33,133 bases of DNA from Opitutia bacterium Tous-C1TDCM (GTDB lineage Bacteria > Verrucomicrobiota > Verrucomicrobiia > Opitutales > Opitutaceae): positions 1 through 33,133 of the forward strand of contig NEUS01000039.1 in the NCBI GenBank assembly GCA_002288455.1, given 5' to 3'. A program made the translations under genes and the position numbers. Position 1 is the stretch's first letter. Each line of letters starts with the position of its first letter. Positions 5,250 through 33,095 of the stretch are shown here, in pieces. The notes beneath the pieces were generated by a model. That model was not told where the DNA came from, did not search any database, and saw only the letters and a list, made by a program, of their open reading frames with translations.

Positions 5250-5594
5250 GGGGAGGATCGGGTAAACCGCAGCGCAGGTTGCGTTGCGTTGGCCTGATCC
5301 TGCCCCGGCCGCGTAAAGCCCATGTTTCGGCGCGCTCCCGAAATGTTAAGCCCGCGTTAGCGCGGCCGGCGGGAGCCCGGCGCGGCTCCGTGCTTTCCTC
5401 GGTCGACTCCGCGACTCCTTTCGACGGCCGGCCCCGCCCGGCTCCGCCGGACTCAGGCAGTTGAGAGAGCTTGGCTGAGAGTTGAGAGCAAAGCCGTTCG
5501 GTTCATCCGGTTGCTGGCTTCGGCTGCGCTTTCCGTGCCGCGGATCGATCTCTCAACCCTCAACTTTCAACTCTCAACTGCATCAGCTCTTGGC
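5250..5594. other. 345-bp gap: leader of the di-haem gene plus one 123-bp repeat element
   Basis: The left part (5250 to about 5400) should hold the promoter of the minus-strand di-haem gene. No clear -35/-10 was recognised. The right part (5458-5580) is the repeat element described separately. No conserved ORF, tRNA or riboswitch is visible. Confidence 0.5.
5458..5580. repeat. 123-bp dispersed element with CAGTTGAGAG / CTCTCAACTG ends, copy 1
   Basis: The element begins CAGTTGAGAGAGCTTGGCTG and ends CTCTCAACTG, so its termini are inverted repeats. A second, clearly homologous copy lies at 32893-33018 in the same orientation, with the same ends and a conserved centre (GCCGTTCGGTTC / ACCGTTCGGTTC, then GATCGATCTCTCAACCCTCA). 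Internally it repeats GAGAGTTGAGAG on the left and TCTCAACCCTCAACTTTCAA on the right. It has no ORF and resembles a short non-autonomous mobile or REP-like element. Confidence 0.85.
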
Positions 5595-10848: not shown

Positions 10849-10922
10849 GTAGGGGCGCGGCTCGCCCGCGCCCGTCCGGCCGCGACCGTCCACCCCAAGG
10901 CGCGCACGAGGCGCGCCCCTAC
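10849..10922. repeat. 74-bp repeat with GTAGGGGCGCG inverted ends
   Basis: The ends GTAGGGGCGCG (10849-10859) and CGCGCCCCTAC (10912-10922) are perfect 11-bp inverted repeats; the interior is GC-rich with CGCGCACGAGGCGC near the right end. It lies between the RNase HIII stop and the sigma-factor start, both on the minus strand. It therefore probably carries or disrupts the signalling operon's leader. Confidence 0.8.
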
Positions 10923-14264: not shown

Positions 14265-14348
14265 GCAGGAAAACGCCAGAGACGAAAGGGATGGCCAACG
14301 GGTTGCACGCCGAAAAACCGCCCCCGGGAAATTTACCCGCCCCCGCCG

Positions 14349-14416
14349 TATCCGGTTTCCCCATTCCGGTCTCCGGCCTTGGCACTCCGGTCTCCGGTTT
14401 CCGAATTCCGGTTTTC
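14349..14416. repeat. CCGGTCTCCGG / CCGGTTTCC pyrimidine repeat between the isomerase start and rpsU
   Basis: This segment carries TCCGGTTTCCCCATTCCGG, TCTCCGGCCTTGGCACTCCG and TCTCCGGTTTCCGAATTCCG words. They match closely the repeats at 13284-13313 and 18781-18932. It lies in the 251-bp space between the isomerase start and the rpsU terminator. Confidence 0.75.
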
Positions 14417-14438
14417 TTCCATCGCCGCTCCGGACACG

Positions 14439-14473
14439 AAAAAACCGCGCTCCCTCCGGCAAGGGGGCGCGGT
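14439..14473 (-). terminator. Rho-independent terminator of rpsU
   Basis: Read on the minus strand, ACCGCGC (14473-14467) pairs with GCGCGGT (14450-14444). Inside these arms CCC/GGG pairs extend the stem around TTGCCGGA. The stem is followed directly by a run of six Ts. It lies about 43 nt after the rpsU stop and is the only classical intrinsic terminator I recognise in the window. Confidence 0.88.
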
Positions 14474-14515
14474 CAAAGAGGTTGCCAAGTCTTTGCGACC
14501 CGGAAACCCGTCGCC

Positions 14516-14713
14516 TTACTCGGCGTAACGGCGGCGCAGCATCTGGGTGAAGGCCTGGACCTTCTCCTTGCGGCGGCGCTTTTCGCACGGCTTCTCGAAG
14601 TAACGCTTCGCGCGCGTGCCTTTGATGATGTTCTCGCGATCGAGCTTCTTCTTCATGCGCCGCAGCGCACGGTCGATGGGCTCGTTTTTGCGAATCTTGA
14701 TTTCGATGGACAT
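14516..14713 (-). CDS. rpsU: 30S ribosomal protein S21
   Basis: A 65-residue, very basic protein beginning MSIEIKIRKNEPIDRALRRM and continuing through KLDRENIIKGTRAKRYFEKP. It matches the S21/bS21 family from its first residue. It binds the small ribosomal subunit near the platform and helps translation initiation. The frame is open upstream to 14845, but the ATG at 14713 gives the family's natural N-terminus. There is no evident Shine-Dalgarno sequence. The gene has its own terminator and is divergent from dnaE, so it is probably a single-gene unit. Confidence 0.95.
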   Translation of the reverse strand: MSIEIKIRKNEPIDRALRRMKKKLDRENIIKGTRAKRYFEKPCEKRRRKEKVQAFTQMLRRRYAE

Positions 14714-14890
14714 GGATGCAGGCGTGACGGGACCGGTTGGAGAAAGAGGAAAAGAAACGAACAAGCCGTCCCGCGTCGCCGGCGTCAATGGCATTTTTGG
14801 CCGTTTTCCCCGCCCGCCTTCCCCGCTCCGCCCGCGCCGCGGCATTCGCCCTTGCGCGGTCCCTTCGCGGCGGTTGTTTCAACCCGACCC

Positions 14891-17800
14891 GTGGCCACCG
14901 CCGATTCCAACTTCGTCCACCTGCACGTCCACACCGATTACAGCCTCCTCGACGGCTGCTGCCGCATCGACCGGCTGATGGACCGCGCCCACGAACTCGG
15001 CATGAAGGCCATGGCCCTCACCGACCACGGCAATCTCTACGGCGCGATCGAGTTCTACAACCAGGCCAAGACCAAGGGCATCAAACCCCTCATCGGCTGC
15101 GAACTCTACCTTGTCGAAACCTCCCGGCTCGAGAAACACGGCCGCTCCGACGAAGGGAAATCCATCTTCCACCTCGGCCTCCTCGCCAAGAACCTCACCG
15201 GCTACCAAAACCTGCTCAAGCTCGTCTCCGACGCCCACCTCAAGGGCTTCTATTACAAGCCCCGCACCGACCTCGAGACCCTCGCCAAATACGCCGGCGG
15301 CCTCATCGGCTTCACCGGCTGCCTCGCCTCCCTCGTCCCCCAGCACCTGCTCTTCGATCGCTACGAGGAGGCCCGCCGGGCCTGCGGCCGTTTCGTCGAG
15401 ATCTTCGGCAAGGAAAACTACTTCGTCGAAATCCAGGATCACGGCATCCCCGAACAGATCAAAATCATCCCCGGCCTGCTCAAACTCGCCGAGGAATTCG
15501 GCCTCAAGGTCATCTGCTCGAACGATGTCCACTACGTGCGCAACTCCGACTCCGGCCCCCACGACGCGATGCTCTGCATCCAGACGGGCTCGAAGATCGA
15601 CGACGAGAAACGCATGCGTTTTTCGGGCAACCAATTCTACCTCAAGTCCCGCGACGAGATGGCGAAGCTCTTCGCCGAGGTCCCCGAATCCGTCCTCAAC
15701 ACCCAGCTCGTCGCCGAGATGTGCGAGCTCGCGATCCCGTTTCCCAAAGGCAGCGAACGCTACCCGCGCTACCCGCTCCCGCCCGAAATCAAGACGCAGT
15801 TCACCTCGCCCTCCTACCTCCGCGAACTCTGCGTCCAGGGCCTGAAAGCCCGCTACGGTTTCGATTTCGAGGAGGTCCGCCTCCGGCCGATCGTCGCCGA
15901 ACGCCTCGCCAAGCTCACCGATCTCCCGCCCGGCCAAAAGCCCTCCGCCCCCGACTACTCCGGCCTCCCCCTCGCCGAGGAACTCGCCGTCCGCATGGGC
16001 TACGAGCTCGCCATCATCAATGTCACTGGCTTCGTCGACTACTTCCTCGTCGTCTGGGACTTCATCGCCTGGGCCAAGGCCCACGGCGTCCCCGTCGGCC
16101 CCGGCCGCGGCTCCGGCGCCGGCTGCCTCGTCGCCTACCTGCTCGGTATCACCAATCTCGATCCGATCCGCTTCAAGCTGCTCTTCGAGCGTTTCCTCAA
16201 CCCCGAGCGCGTCTCGCCGCCCGACTTCGACATCGATTTCTGCATGCGCCGCCGCGAAGAGGTCATCAACTACGTGCGCGAGAAGTACGGCCGCGACTGC
16301 GTCGCCAACATCATCACCTACGGCACCCTCGGCGCCAAGATGGTCATCCGCGACATCTCCCGCGTCCACAACCTCGCCTTCGCCGACGCCGACCGCCTCG
16401 CGAAGATGATCCCCGACGAGCTCAACATCACCCTCGAGGACTCCGTCGCCAAATCTTCCGAACTCCGCGACGAGGTGAACAAAAACCCCGTCGCCAAGAA
16501 AATCTTCGACCAGGCCCGCGTCCTCGAAGGCATGGTCCGCAACACCGGCAAACACGCCGCCGGCATCATCATCACCGACCAGGCCCTCGACGACTTCGTC
16601 CCCCTCACCCTCCAGGAAGGCGACGTCACCGTGCAGTTCGACATGAACGCCGTCGGCAAGCTCGGCCTGCTGAAGATGGATTTCCTCGGCCTCAAGACGC
16701 TCACCGTCATCTCCGACGCCGTCGAAAACGTCCGCCGCACCGCCGATCCGAAATTCGACATCGAGTCCCTCCCCCTCGACGACCCCAGGACCTACACCAT
16801 CCTCAACGCCGGCAAAACGGTCGGCGTGTTCCAGCTCGAATCTCCCGGCATGCAGAACGCCTGCAAGCAGGTCGGCGTCTCCAATATCGACGATATCAAC
16901 GCCATCTGCGCCCTCTACCGCCCCGGCCCGATGGCGTTCATCCCCGACTACGCCCGCGGCAAGAAAGACCCGTCCTCCGTCAGCTACCCGCACAAGCTGC
17001 TCGAGCAGTCCCTGCAGGAAACCTACGGCATCATCGTTTACCAGGAACAGGTGATGGAGTGCGCCAAGATCATCGCCGGCTACACGCTCGGCGGCGCCGA
17101 CATGCTCCGCCGCGCCATGGGCAAAAAGGACGCCGAGGCCATGGCCAAGGAACGCATCAAGTTCGTCGAAGGCGCCAAGCGCGTGAACAACATCGAAGAG
17201 AAGAAGGCCAACGAGATCTTCGACCTGCTCAACAAGTTCGCCGCCTACGGTTTCAACAAATCGCACTCCGCCGCCTACGCCCTCGTCAGCTACCAGACCG
17301 CGTATCTGAAAGCCAACTACCCGGTCCAGTTCATGGCCGCCGTGCTCACCGCCGAACTCGGCAACGCGGAAAAAGTCTCCCACTTCATCGCCGAAGCCGA
17401 AGCCATGGGCATCGTCGTCCTCGGCCCCGACGTGAACGAATCCCGCGAGACGTTCACCCCGGTCGTGCGTCGCCCCGGCGACGCCGTTTCCGGTCTCTCG
17501 ACTCTCAACTCTCAACTTTCAACCGACCGAAGCGAATCGCAGATTCGCTTCGGTCTGGCAGGCATCAAGGGCGTCGGCGAACAGGCCGCCGCCAAGATCC
17601 TCGAGGAACGCGAACGCCGCGGCCCCTACGCCGATTTCCGCGACTTCATGATCCGCGCCGATGCCCGCGCCATCAACAAACGCGTCCTCGAAAACCTCGT
17701 CGCCACCGGCGCCTTCGATTTCAGCGGCGCCCCGCGCGAGGAACTCTTCGCCCAGCTCGACGAAGCCATCTCCGCCCTCGGCGAACTCCACCGCAAATAC

Positions 17801-18772
17801 CCCGCCCTGCGCAAAGACGCCCCCGTCGCCAAGGCCGAGGAACCCGCCGAATCCATGCTCTTCGACATGGCCGCCGCGGACACCCCCGCCGCCCTCCCCG
17901 ACCGCCAGGTCCTGCGCGACGAGTTCGCCAACTTCCTCCGCCACACCCGCCGCGCCCCCGTCGCCGCCGCCGCGGCCGCGAAATCCGACGACGCGATGTT
18001 CGACCTCGGCTCGGCTCCGAACTCCAAACTCCAAACTCCGAACTCCAAATCGGCGTCTACCGCCGCCGCCGAGCGCCGCCTCACCTCCGCCAACGTCCTC
18101 CAGTTCGAGAAAGAATTGCTCGGCTTCTACGTTTCCGGCCACCCGATGAACGCCTACGTCGGGCTCGCCGAGGCGATCAACACCTACGCTATCGACGAAC
18201 TCCTCCTCCAGGGCGACCGCGTCGAATTCCGCCTCTGCGGCATCGCCGCCAACATCGTCAAACGCCTCTCGAAAAAGGACAACCGCCCCTGGGCCGCCTT
18301 CACCCTCGCGACCAAGCACGGCTCCATCGGCCTCAACATTTTCGCCGACGGCTACGAAGCCTACGGCAAGAGCCTCGCCGAAAACGCCTTGGTCCTCGTC
18401 CAGGGCAACATCATCGTCAATCAGGAGGGTCCGCGCATCAACGTGAAGGAAATCTACCCGCTCGACGGCCAGGTCGCCGGCCTCGTCAAGCGCGTCACCT
18501 GGCTTCTCCACCCGTCGCACCCCGCGGTCCCGGCCTTCCTGCAGCAGCTGCGCTCCACCCTCGACAAACAGGCCGGCGACACCCGCGTGAGCCTCGGCTT
18601 CGTCTTCGAAAACCGCGTCGCCTCCGTCGCCGAGGCCAGCAACGCCCTCTCCTGGAAACTCAACGCCCCCGCCTTCCAGACCCTCCGCGCCCACCCCGCC
18701 GTCGCCGGCGTCCAAGTCGAAACCCGCCCCCTCGAACTCAAAGAGGACCGCCGCTGGAAGAAACGCAGCTAG
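14891..18772 (+). CDS. dnaE: DNA polymerase III subunit alpha (DnaE1)
   Basis: A 1293-residue replicative polymerase from a GTG that places the PHP domain at the N-terminus (FVHLHVHTDYSLLDGC, ALTDHGNLYGAIEFYN). The polymerase core has GPGRGSGAGCLVAYLLGIT, the catalytic PDFDIDFCMRRREEVINYV (D445, D447) and the third acid in KMDFLGLKTLT (D597). Also visible are LYRPGPMAFIPDYARGK, GIIVYQEQVMECA and the finger segment KFAAYGFNKSHSAAYALVSY. Then come the helix-hairpin-helix part (IKGVGEQAAAKILEERERRG) and the OB fold (VEFRLCGIAANIVKRL). It is longer than E. coli DnaE (1160). Part of the excess is two repeat-like in-frame stretches at residues 869-883 and 1043-1053. A longer open frame from 14291 crosses rpsU and its terminator and is rejected as the start. 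Confidence 0.96.
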   Translation: MATADSNFVHLHVHTDYSLLDGCCRIDRLMDRAHELGMKAMALTDHGNLYGAIEFYNQAKTKGIKPLIGCELYLVETSRLEKHGRSDEGKSIFHLGLLAKNLTGYQNLLKLVSDAHLKGFYYKPRTDLETLAKYAGGLIGFTGCLASLVPQHLLFDRYEEARRACGRFVEIFGKENYFVEIQDHGIPEQIKIIPGLLKLAEEFGLKVICSNDVHYVRNSDSGPHDAMLCIQTGSKIDDEKRMRFSGNQFYLKSRDEMAKLFAEVPESVLNTQLVAEMCELAIPFPKGSERYPRYPLPPEIKTQFTSPSYLRELCVQGLKARYGFDFEEVRLRPIVAERLAKLTDLPPGQKPSAPDYSGLPLAEELAVRMGYELAIINVTGFVDYFLVVWDFIAWAKAHGVPVGPGRGSGAGCLVAYLLGITNLDPIRFKLLFERFLNPERVSPPDFDIDFCMRRREEVINYVREKYGRDCVANIITYGTLGAKMVIRDISRVHNLAFADADRLAKMIPDELNITLEDSVAKSSELRDEVNKNPVAKKIFDQARVLEGMVRNTGKHAAGIIITDQALDDFVPLTLQEGDVTVQFDMNAVGKLGLLKMDFLGLKTLTVISDAVENVRRTADPKFDIESLPLDDPRTYTILNAGKTVGVFQLESPGMQNACKQVGVSNIDDINAICALYRPGPMAFIPDYARGKKDPSSVSYPHKLLEQSLQETYGIIVYQEQVMECAKIIAGYTLGGADMLRRAMGKKDAEAMAKERIKFVEGAKRVNNIEEKKANEIFDLLNKFAAYGFNKSHSAAYALVSYQTAYLKANYPVQFMAAVLTAELGNAEKVSHFIAEAEAMGIVVLGPDVNESRETFTPVVRRPGDAVSGLSTLNSQLSTDRSESQIRFGLAGIKGVGEQAAAKILEERERRGPYADFRDFMIRADARAINKRVLENLVATGAFDFSGAPREELFAQLDEAISALGELHRKYPALRKDAPVAKAEEPAESMLFDMAAADTPAALPDRQVLRDEFANFLRHTRRAPVAAAAAAKSDDAMFDLGSAPNSKLQTPNSKSASTAAAERRLTSANVLQFEKELLGFYVSGHPMNAYVGLAEAINTYAIDELLLQGDRVEFRLCGIAANIVKRLSKKDNRPWAAFTLATKHGSIGLNIFADGYEAYGKSLAENALVLVQGNIIVNQEGPRINVKEIYPLDGQVAGLVKRVTWLLHPSHPAVPAFLQQLRSTLDKQAGDTRVSLGFVFENRVASVAEASNALSWKLNAPAFQTLRAHPAVAGVQVETRPLELKEDRRWKKRS
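17494..17555. repeat. Repeat fragment and perfect 14-bp palindrome inside dnaE
   Basis: TCTCGACTCTCAACTCTCAA and the following CTTTCAAC (17495-17523) repeat the CTCAACTTTCAACTCTCAAC words at the right end of the 123-bp element at 5458-5580. They are followed directly by GACCGAAGCGAATC (17525-17538), a GCA loop and its exact reverse complement (17542-17555). The stretch is read in frame as LSTLNSQLSTDRSES, just before the conserved IRFGLAGIKGVGE. Confidence 0.85.
18017..18049. repeat. AACTCCAAACTCC repeat inside dnaE
   Basis: Four near-identical units (CCGAACTCCAAA, CTCCAAA, CTCCGAACTCCAAA) give residues PNSKLQTPNSK (1043-1053). This is a composition unlike the surrounding Ala/Arg/Asp-rich protein. 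On the opposite strand it resembles GGTTCGGAGTTCGGAGTTCG of the gap at 313-331. Confidence 0.7.
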
Positions 18773-18777
18773 GATAA

Positions 18778-18936
18778 AATCGGAATTGGGAAACCGGAGA
18801 CCGGAAACAAACACCGGCCTCGCCATCTTTCCGCCGGCTCCGTATCCACCTTTCTGTTTCCGGTTTCCGGTCTCCGCATTCCGGGTTTCTCCTTCCGCCT
18901 TTCCCACTCCGGTCTCCGGTTTCCGAATTCCGCATT
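18778..18936. repeat. Inverted CCGGAGACC / CCGGTCTCC repeat between dnaE and the rRNA methyltransferase
   Basis: CGGAATTGGGAAACCGGAGA continuing to CCGG (18781-18804) and the block 18909-18932 are 24-nt inverted arms with one mismatch. Further CGGTTTCCGGTCTCCG words lie between them at about 18860-18876. The element fills the whole 167-bp gap and ends a few bases before the next ATG. Confidence 0.85.
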
Positions 18937-18939
18937 TCA

Positions 18940-20185: not shown

Positions 20186-21136
20186 ATGCCCCCCGGCAAG
20201 ATCACCGCCGCCACGGTCCGGGCCGATTTCAACGATCTCCTCGCGGTCGTGCACTACACGCGCGCCGCGCACGAGCTCGGCCTCTGGGCCTCGGAGCGGC
20301 TCCTGATCGAGCGCCACTTCACCGACCGCACCGCACCCCTGCTCGAAGCCGGCTGCGGCGCCGGCCGCGTGACCCTCGGCCTTTGGCAACTCGGCTACCG
20401 CGAGCTCGTCGCCTTCGACTTCGCCGAAGAGCTCGTCGACCAGGCCCGCAGCCTCGCCGCCGAGCGCCTCCCGGAGAATACACCACCCGACCCCGCCTCC
20501 GATATCAGTCCTATCCGTCCCATCCGTCCCATGGGACCCATAGGACCTATAGGACCCATAGACTCCCCCCCCGCCCCCCTCACCTTCCTCCACGCCGACG
20601 CCACCGCCCTCCTCTCGCCGCAAAGTAACCTATTGGGTTACTTTGCCGCGTCGCGCCCGCGCGGCTGCACCGACCCGCGCGGCTATTTCGGCGGCGCGCT
20701 CTTCCCCTTCAACGGCCTCATGCAGATCCCCGGCCGCGCGCACCGGCGCGAGGCGCTGCGCGGTCTGGCGGAGGTCTGCGCGCCCGGCGCGCCGCTGCTC
20801 TTCACGACGCACGACCGCGACGCCTCGCCCACCGAGCGCGCGCTCTGGCGCCTCGAGACGATCCGCTGGACGCGCGGCGAGCAGGACCCGCGCCTCGTCG
20901 AATTCGGCGACCGCTACTTCGAGGACGAAGCCGGCCGCACCTTCATGCACCTGCCCGACCGCCGCGAAATCCTCGAGGACCTCGCCGCCACCGGCTGGAC
21001 GCACACCTTCGACGCCCTCCGACCCGAAATCGCCAAAGAGTCCCGCGCCGTCCGCGACTTCTCCGACGAATGCCGCTTCTGGATCGCGACGAAGGAAAAT
21101 CGGGAAAGCGGGAAATCGAAAAAGCGGAAAACCTGA
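20186..21136 (+). CDS. Class I SAM-dependent methyltransferase with in-frame repeat insertions
   Basis: A 316-residue protein with SAM motif I LLEAGCGAGRVTLGLWQLGY (52-71), an acidic motif-II position in VAFDFAEELVDQA and an HADAT motif (137-141). The substrate is unknown. Three parts look foreign. D106-D126 (DISPIRPIRPMGPIGPIGPI, then D) is encoded by TCCGTCCCAT / ATGGGACCCATAGGA words. S144-F153 (SPQSNLLGYF) is encoded by a perfect 11-bp hairpin. The C-terminus (NRESGKSKKRKT) is encoded by the GGGAAAGCGGGAAATC repeat that fills the next gap. The body without these pieces looks like a normal small methyltransferase. The ATG is preceded by six Cs, not a Shine-Dalgarno. Confidence 0.85.
   Translation: MPPGKITAATVRADFNDLLAVVHYTRAAHELGLWASERLLIERHFTDRTAPLLEAGCGAGRVTLGLWQLGYRELVAFDFAEELVDQARSLAAERLPENTPPDPASDISPIRPIRPMGPIGPIGPIDSPPAPLTFLHADATALLSPQSNLLGYFAASRPRGCTDPRGYFGGALFPFNGLMQIPGRAHRREALRGLAEVCAPGAPLLFTTHDRDASPTERALWRLETIRWTRGEQDPRLVEFGDRYFEDEAGRTFMHLPDRREILEDLAATGWTHTFDALRPEIAKESRAVRDFSDECRFWIATKENRESGKSKKRKT
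20501..20646. repeat. Two palindromic repeat stretches inside the methyltransferase gene
   Basis: 20501-20563 has TCCTATCCGTCCCATCCGTC followed by ATGGGACCCATAGGACCTAT, giving a partly self-complementary stretch. 20620-20646 has GCAAAGTAACC, a 5-nt TATTG loop and GGTTACTTTGC, a perfect inverted repeat. Both keep the frame open and encode low-complexity or AT-richer peptide in an otherwise GC-rich gene. Confidence 0.85.
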
Positions 21137-21345
21137 TCCCCGCCGGATCCTATCCGGTCGATCCTGTCTCCGCCCTCCTGTCCCATCCTGTCCCGCCTTG
21201 GCCTCCCTCATTCCGATCCGGGACAGGATGCACAGGACACAAAACAACAGGACCAACAGGATTCCCCCCGGCCCGATTTCCCTATTTCCCGCTTTCCCGC
21301 TTTTCCCGCTTTCCCATTTTTCGCGTTTCTTCTTTCCCAATTTCC
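21094..21345. repeat. Nested inverted repeat: GGGAAAGCGGGAAA arms enclosing GACAGGA arms
   Basis: The outer left arm GGAAAATCGGGAAAGCGGGA (from 21094, running on to about 21130 inside the methyltransferase 3' end) is complementary to the CCCGATTTCCCTATTTCCCG and CTTTCCCGCTTTTCCCG run from 21272 onward. Inside, TCCTGTCCCATCCTGTCCCG (21176-21195) pairs with CGGGACAGGATGCACAGGA (21219-21237). Further CCAATTTCCCGCG words follow to about 21350. It lies between the convergent methyltransferase and flavin reductase genes. Confidence 0.85.
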
Positions 21346-32768: not shown

Positions 32769-33095
32769 CCGCGCGGCTCCGCCGCGCGGAGCTTTAAGCT
32801 CTAAGCTCTAAGCTTGGAGCCTGAATTCATCAGCCGCGCCGCGTCCGGTCCGTCGCTTTGAGCTTATTGCTTTCCGCTTAGCCGAACTCATGCAGTTGAG
32901 AGAACTTGGCTGAGAGTTGAGAGCAAAACCGTTCGGTTCGTCAGGCTGCTGGCTTTGGCTGCGTTTCCCGTGGCTCGGCTGATCGATCTCTCAACCCTCA
33001 TCTTTCAACTCTCAACTGAATGATCCCCGCTTAGCGCCCCGAATCTTTGCTCCCCGTTTGCCGCCCCGCCGATTTCCCGTCCCGTTCCCCGTTCC
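32769..33095. other. 327-bp gap: GC hairpin, AAGCTC repeat and copy 2 of the CAGTTGAGAG element
   Basis: CCGCGCGGC (32769-32777), a TCC loop and GCCGCGCGG (32781-32789) form a perfect 9-bp hairpin right after the permease stop. There is no T-run, so termination is uncertain. AAGCTCTAAGCTCTAAGC and GCTTTCCGCTTAGC words follow (32789-32884), then the repeat element at 32893-33018. No ORF or tRNA is visible. The gap separates the permease from the next gene, making strict co-transcription less certain. Confidence 0.7.
32893..33018. repeat. 126-bp dispersed element with CAGTTGAGAG / CTCTCAACTG ends, copy 2
   Basis: It is homologous over its whole length to 5458-5580, with the same ends (CAGTTGAGAGAACTTGGCTG and CAACTCTCAACTG) and the same orientation. 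Differences are scattered substitutions and a few-base indel near TGGCTCGGCTGATCGATC. Both copies are also preceded by a similar ACTCAGG / ACTCATG hexamer-like context. Confidence 0.85.

Follow-up and report, generated by a model that had tools for sequence, protein, structure and literature searches.

An in-frame insert in dnaE of an Opitutaceae bacterium as a probable part-copy of a dispersed heptad-repeat element

Introduction

STRR sequences are dispersed heptamer repeats of cyanobacteria. Heptamers of other kinds are also found scattered over bacterial genomes, i.e. GGGAATC repeats in Xanthomonas and the kin of Nostoc (PMC4692102) and TAACTGA repeats in the Beggiatoaceae (PMC4679880). REPs of the GTAG and CGTC types are located downstream of genes, and intragenic REPs are known too; those of the GTAG type are most numerous in Opitutus terrae, where both uvrA genes are hit, and one intragenic REP was reported in dnaE of R. 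conorii (PMC3733652). Within genes of Rickettsia, palindromic elements are inserted in frame (PMC10969869). Mutations in which template switching acts on quasipalindromes are known in E. coli (PMC7202029) and were reported in coding genes of yeast (PMC8604942).

The DNA analyzed here (the window) is a stretch of 33,133 nucleotides of contig NEUS01000039.1 of Opitutia bacterium Tous-C1TDCM. An original prediction, made from the letters of the window, had compared an in-frame repeat in its dnaE gene with the Rickettsia palindromic elements, and this parallel is a fair one, as a palindromic repeat lies in frame in a conserved gene and such repeats recur in unrelated genes (here dnaE, proA, uvrA and metH). 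The differences are the other phylum, the genome-specific flavours of the repeats and the hairpin on target codons, which was not found described for Rickettsia in the available text. The same prediction knew of no such system in this phylum, which has to be corrected: in-frame GTAG REPs in genes of Opitutus terrae have already been published (PMC3733652) and the kind of phenomenon is known. Those REPs are likewise multi-copy palindromic repeats in genes, many of which serve replication and repair, including uvrA. However, REPs are described as short GTAG-tagged palindromes, whereas the present repeats are untagged heptad arrays next to a hairpin, the outer arm of which consists of host codons, and, unlike in O. 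terrae as far as that text goes, one dnaE site is used by many unrelated repeats.

With the heptamers of Xanthomonas and Nostoc kin, of the Beggiatoaceae and of the STRR type, the present repeats share tandem 7-bp units at many, mostly intergenic loci; they differ from what is described there in being inverted arrays with hairpins, placed in frame in conserved genes. As in the reported quasipalindrome mutations, imperfect inverted repeats may have been made more perfect by copying, within codons too, but here the putative event is coupled to a dispersed-repeat insert and recurs family-wide. The two intergenic copies in the window are MITE-like in having terminal inverted repeats. We found no prior description of in-frame heptad arrays with host-codon hairpins in Verrucomicrobia in searches of the open-licence literature.

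Results and Discussion

Architecture of the dnaE insert

The following features were recognized in the dnaE region (coordinates are those of the window).

14291-18772, + strand: dnaE open reading frame (DNA polymerase III alpha), with a PHP motif near ORF residue 206
17465-17542, + strand: in-frame insert in dnaE, delimited by loop comparison, E. coli alignment and a low-confidence model stretch
17467-17484, no strand: left inverted repeat of the insert, GCGTCGCC CC GGCGACGC, with 8-base arms and 2 bases between them
17495-17523, + strand: heptad array of the CTCAACT type within the insert, CTCTCGACTCTCAACTCTCAACTTTCAAC
17525-17555, no strand: right hairpin, with perfect 14-bp arms and a 3-nt loop, GCA
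18015-18049, + strand: second in-frame heptad array in dnaE, of another flavour (CTCCRAA, five times), encoding the peptide SKLQTPN

The ORF matches the DnaE family NCBIfam NF004226 at 1314 bits. Its insert comprises 26 codons, versus approximately 3 in the short form of the family (net gain of 23 residues), and is bordered by native codons on both sides, FTPV (17453-17464) at the 5' end and IRFGLAG (from 17543) at the 3' end, the second of these motifs being IRFGLAGIKGVG. The site is a polymerase loop just upstream of the IRFGLAGIKGVGE segment. In the alignment, E. coli alpha lacks the insert and has the short stretch HVNDDGEIVYGIGAIKGVGE at the same place. A model of this DnaE segment (31 sequences) had a mean pLDDT of 67.8, with values below 50 for residues 162-180, inside the insert (159-184), which are located between two strands.

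The original prediction had reported an in-frame repeat stretch together with a perfect 14-bp palindrome with a 3-nt loop, extending over the first codons of the conserved segment, and this is what was seen: the right arm of the hairpin is made of native DnaE codons (IRFGL) and the left arm is an inverted copy of them. Two features had been missed, namely the left inverted repeat, which flanks the heptads on the side opposite to the 14-bp hairpin, and the second heptad array. The insert peptide LSTLNSQLST begins at residue 1069 of the ORF; given the position of the PHP motif, the residue number 869 assigned earlier fits a later start. A pure CTCAACT array leaves all three frames open on the + strand at dnaE and has stops in all three frames of the other strand. 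The pyrimidine-rich strand is the coding one in the in-gene arrays, yet this is no independent evidence, because the opposite strand, closed in every frame where the array is pure, could never be called as coding.

Heptad-repeat elements of the source genome

Heptads are present at dozens of sites in the source genome, mostly intergenic. A 69-nt query from dnaE gave at least 45 matches (E of up to 10; 40 of 157 candidates scored), and there are 26 exact copies of the 13-mer CTCAACTTTCAAC. Within the window there were 11 heptad-type matches against 0.90 expected, and none of 100 shuffles reached 11; a control with the reversed pattern (18 and 11 matches versus 18 and 8) was uninformative, because a heptad array reads almost identically backwards. 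Rfam gave no match at gathering scores anywhere in the window. Two intergenic copies of a larger inverted-repeat element were delimited.

5452-5586, no strand: copy of this heptad element, intergenic
32875-33036, no strand: another copy of it, likewise intergenic, close to the end of the contig

Both have terminal inverted repeats with imperfect arms, of 37 nt (73% complementary) and of 49 nt (71%), respectively. A consensus of 16 intergenic copies, picked by eye, is approximately 150 bp long and carries heptad arrays as inverted ends; its 3' part agrees with the dnaE array at 28/33 positions and with the metH array of the source genome at 42/44. The likeness of the dnaE block to the element at 5458-5580, originally put forward as similarity of words, is therefore real and exceeds the word level.

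The original prediction had called for a genome search with the block and with the palindrome, and further copies were seen of the heptad block. Among the matches listed for the dnaE query (40 of 157 candidates scored), no other copy of the 31-bp palindrome was found: of at least 45 matches, two correspond to the query locus itself, and none of the other 43 goes past query position 42, which keeps them inside the heptads or at most 10 bases beyond. Within the scope of these 40 scored candidates, the palindrome was rejected as a dispersed repeat; its right arm is native DnaE sequence.

Whether further copies lie in frame in genes had also been asked. Coding context was assessed for 39 array loci of the source genome. 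Of the five that were flagged, those in the conserved genes dnaE, proA, uvrA and metH are in frame; the fifth (L017), flagged as coding at first, later looked intergenic and was dropped. The 36 arrays outside clear genes lie between convergent (11), tandem (11) or divergent (2) gene pairs, at contig edges (11) or in an unclear setting (1). Heptad arrays were seen less than about 250 bases from the contig end in C81, C79, C128, C90, C54, C157, C14 and C111, so these repeats may break the assembly.

The dnaE loop across the family

The dnaE segment was found in 98 of 100 family genomes searched and the DNA of all 98 was taken, yielding 93 parsed loops (5 unparsed). Of these, 32 have an empty form of 28 aa and 41 have at least 40 aa. 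On the question raised by the original prediction, whether the stretch is an insertion, the empty form of these 32 family loops and the absence from E. coli alpha show that it is. From 80 named records, 49 further distinct loops were added (31 left out as duplicates), which gave 142 loops in total: 52 of up to 32 aa (short), 20 of 33-39 aa (mid) and 70 of 40-88 aa (long). As the named loci were picked by likeness to an insert-holding query and favour long loops, family frequencies were taken from the 93 family loops. All long loops sit between the same two motifs. Outside the family, 124 of 127 genomes of class relatives match the segment; 109 of these are aligned over the full length, spanning 279-318 nt and exceeding the 28-aa form by at most 13 residues, and the other 15 are partial alignments, uninformative on loop length.

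The site is reused and its content turns over. On a quick flank tree, in which 54 of 139 inner branches have support below 80, the long/short label of 122 loops requires 33 changes, and starred branches force at least 11 of these; shuffled labels require 39.4 on average, and 17 of 500 shuffles were as low as 33. The nearest record on the tree (L154, distance 0.05) has a different heptad insert in dnaE, L165 (0.25) has an insert of the CTCAACT kind with both arms, and in L169 (0.45) the site is empty. L154 and L165, the nearest named records, bear the name Opitutaceae, the family to which O. terrae also belongs. Other close pairs of empty and filled sites include G026 versus G067 and G091.

The inserts vary in heptad flavour or are made of other repeats, and several are multi-copy in their own genome. 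A joined query of eight dnaE inserts, whose counts include matches to inserts of other genomes (40 candidates scored per genome), gave at least 57 matches in genome G003, 52 in G074, 47 in G037, 34 in G002 and 18 in G022, at least 4 each in G085 and G056, and 7 weak ones among those listed in the insert-free genome G004. Some dnaE and metH inserts (L069 of G002, L166 and L257) were seen to hold palindromic repeats of the GDSPV or GTGV-PPV type, and that of L069 is multi-copy in G002.

Hairpins over native codons

A host-codon hairpin was defined as a perfect hairpin with arms of at least 8 bp, the right arm lying over at least 6 bases of the native IRFG codons. It was present in 15/70 long, 0/20 mid and 0/52 short dnaE loops (the count of 15/70 supersedes first counts of 9/41 and 16/70), against a background of 0.29% of 44,776 control positions at the same loci. 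A loop of 3 nt is present in six of the 15; the 14-bp hairpin of L155 falls one base short of the definition.

Inserts are more complementary to the synonymous native codons of their own genome than to those of other genomes. The native 16-base stretch at the hairpin exists in 34 versions among the loops. In permutation tests, which kinship among the genomes inflates, the summed longest match of inserts to their own version was 451, compared with 391.4 on average after permutation (0/5000 as high), and 13 inserts had a complement of at least 8 nt to their own stretch against 7.16 permuted (17/5000). Same-strand matches of at least 8 nt to the native stretch were found in none of the dnaE inserts examined. 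Among the 20 inserts with a complement of at least 7 nt, the own version was the best one in 6, and another version was equal or better in 14. Paired changes also occur: between the window and L165 the second hairpin pair from the outside is changed on both sides (A-T versus C-G), as is one pair between L064 and L182 (A-T versus G-C). The loops of G091 and G067 are otherwise near-identical, with perfect 10-bp arms in the former and two mismatches in the latter, a difference that may have arisen in either direction.

Inserts in metH, uvrA and other genes

The metH sample comprised 88 loci, of which 12 were unparsed and one was mis-anchored, which left 75 usable loops, of which 35 are long and 40 short. 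At the conserved codons, 15/35 long and 0/40 short loops have a hairpin with an arm of at least 7 bp (background 3.0%). The residue before F/YIDW in MetH is Pro in 29/40 short loops, in none of the 15 hairpin loops and in 4 of the 20 long loops lacking a hairpin, the other 16 of which have lost it. Covariation between the hairpin arms is weak in metH. In the main register, 188 paired cells were counted versus 183.7 permuted (448/5000 reaching this value), and in the other register 118 versus 105.8 (1/5000); short loops showed a similar excess in the latter (120 versus 105.5, 20/5000), and a partial palindrome is native to the metH site even where there is no insert. Because of this native palindrome and the weakness of the pairing test, the change in metH may have been one at the protein level, with the hairpin as a by-product.

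For uvrA, DNA was taken from 30 out of 98 matching genomes and 23 loci were parsed (7 unparsed); hairpins of at least 9 bp were present in 3/16 long and 0/7 short loops. The uvrA genes of the family (L332, the source genome's own, and its kin) mostly lie in open frames of approximately 1900-2100 aa, which is long for UvrA.

Heptad flavour, compared within and between genomes by shared 10-mers, matched for dnaE and uvrA (p=0.0014, 4 genomes) and for dnaE and metH (p=0.004, 3 genomes); scored by the number of genomes sharing, the values were p=0.12 for dnaE-metH and p=0.013 for dnaE-uvrA (3 and 4 genomes, respectively). A match of metH and uvrA flavours within genomes was not found (4 genomes).

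In G003, a genome of one contig with 41 array places, 7 of the 30 examined were flagged as coding. For metH, dnaE, pyruvate carboxylase and PurL the array is clearly internal to the family match. One more is in the RecD2 ORF and one in that of a GspE/PilB-like ATPase, where it precedes the matched stretch; these two were not counted as clearly internal. An array at an aldo-keto reductase gene was dropped, since it precedes the family match.

Origin of the inserts

The dnaE stretch is, in our opinion, probably an in-frame and predicted-translated part-copy of a dispersed inverted element built of 7-bp repeats, which is tolerated in a loop and has a hairpin made or perfected by template switching. 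Copies of the element would have spread by some copying route, and those landing in genes would persist only in a stop-free orientation, in frame and in tolerant loops. The flanking hairpin may owe its origin or its perfection to template switching at a quasipalindrome, where the nascent strand would copy its own adjacent host codons backwards. The protein presumably tolerates the enlarged flexible loop, which would need no function. In the dnaE inserts, the arm repeats adjacent host sequence in inverted form, as template switching would require. Against this reading speaks the insert of G006, which has no repeats in its own genome (among the matches listed, the joined query gave only the insert itself). 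The same holds for the 55/70 long loops that lack a host-codon hairpin, the 23 of 41 family long loops with a fold z above -2, the 14 of 20 inserts that match a foreign version equally well or better, the weak covariation in metH and the low share of hairpins in long uvrA loops (3/16).

Mobile repeats of a described kind, that is, REPs or REPINs moved by a RAYT (Y1 transposase) or relatives of the Rickettsia palindromic elements, are an unlikely source. Y1 transposase matches were present in 9/9 genomes searched, with one PF01797 match in the source genome, GTAG...CTAC doublets form the dnaE inserts of G037 (in many copies) and L214, and a GTAG-tagged inverted pair resembling a REP doublet was seen at 10849-10922 of the window. 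Moreover, 22 of the 24 resolved intergenic arrays lie between convergent or tandem genes, as published for REPs (PMC3733652). However, neither the ends of the window's insert nor those of the 16-copy consensus bear a GTAG tag, and both are built of heptads. There is somewhat less reason still to believe that the heptads and the hairpin are under selection for an mRNA or DNA structure regulating or protecting dnaE, metH and uvrA. Long dnaE loops do have more stable folds than control windows from these loci (median z of -1.80 versus 0.23), hairpins recur at one place in dnaE and in metH, and two hairpin pairs are changed on both sides; such selection nevertheless fits poorly with the many empty family sites, close relatives differ in the presence and sequence of the insert, and the host-codon hairpin is missing from 55/70 long loops.

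A purely local origin, the chance expansion of a low-complexity linker by replication slippage, seems very improbable. Although heptamers are over-represented among the simple repeats of many bacteria (PMC4692102), the genome has the same heptads at many loci unrelated to each other, including intergenic copies that are alike over approximately 150 bp, and the inserts of other genomes match repeats of their own genome. An assembly artefact of the metagenome bin would be suggested by the several arrays at contig ends in a genome of 160 contigs, but its probability is close to nil, since the dnaE copy is internal to its contig and in frame, and a similar dnaE insert is present in the one-contig genome G003.

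Beyond the single copy read here as a part of the dispersed element, a wider and more speculative picture can be drawn. It is conceivable, though we would not expect it, that heptad elements insert in frame into fixed loops of enzymes for replication, repair and metabolism, where they rebuild an end hairpin from adjacent host codons, so that copies become target-matched and can rewrite conserved residues (e.g. the Pro before FIDW of methionine synthase), with the soft spot being emptied and refilled with different repeats in short evolutionary times. In the Opitutaceae, the in-frame entry of dispersed repeats is traceable at one replicative-polymerase site over more than 100 loops that are empty, filled or refilled. 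This makes two questions testable: how small gene-less repeats spread, and whether template switching naturally changes conserved residues.

Other inverted arrays in the window

Inverted arrays of further flavours (TCAGTG, GGAAACCGGAGACC and GGGAAAGC types) were seen in the window at 114-436, 18771-18937, 20503-20560 and 21094-21322.
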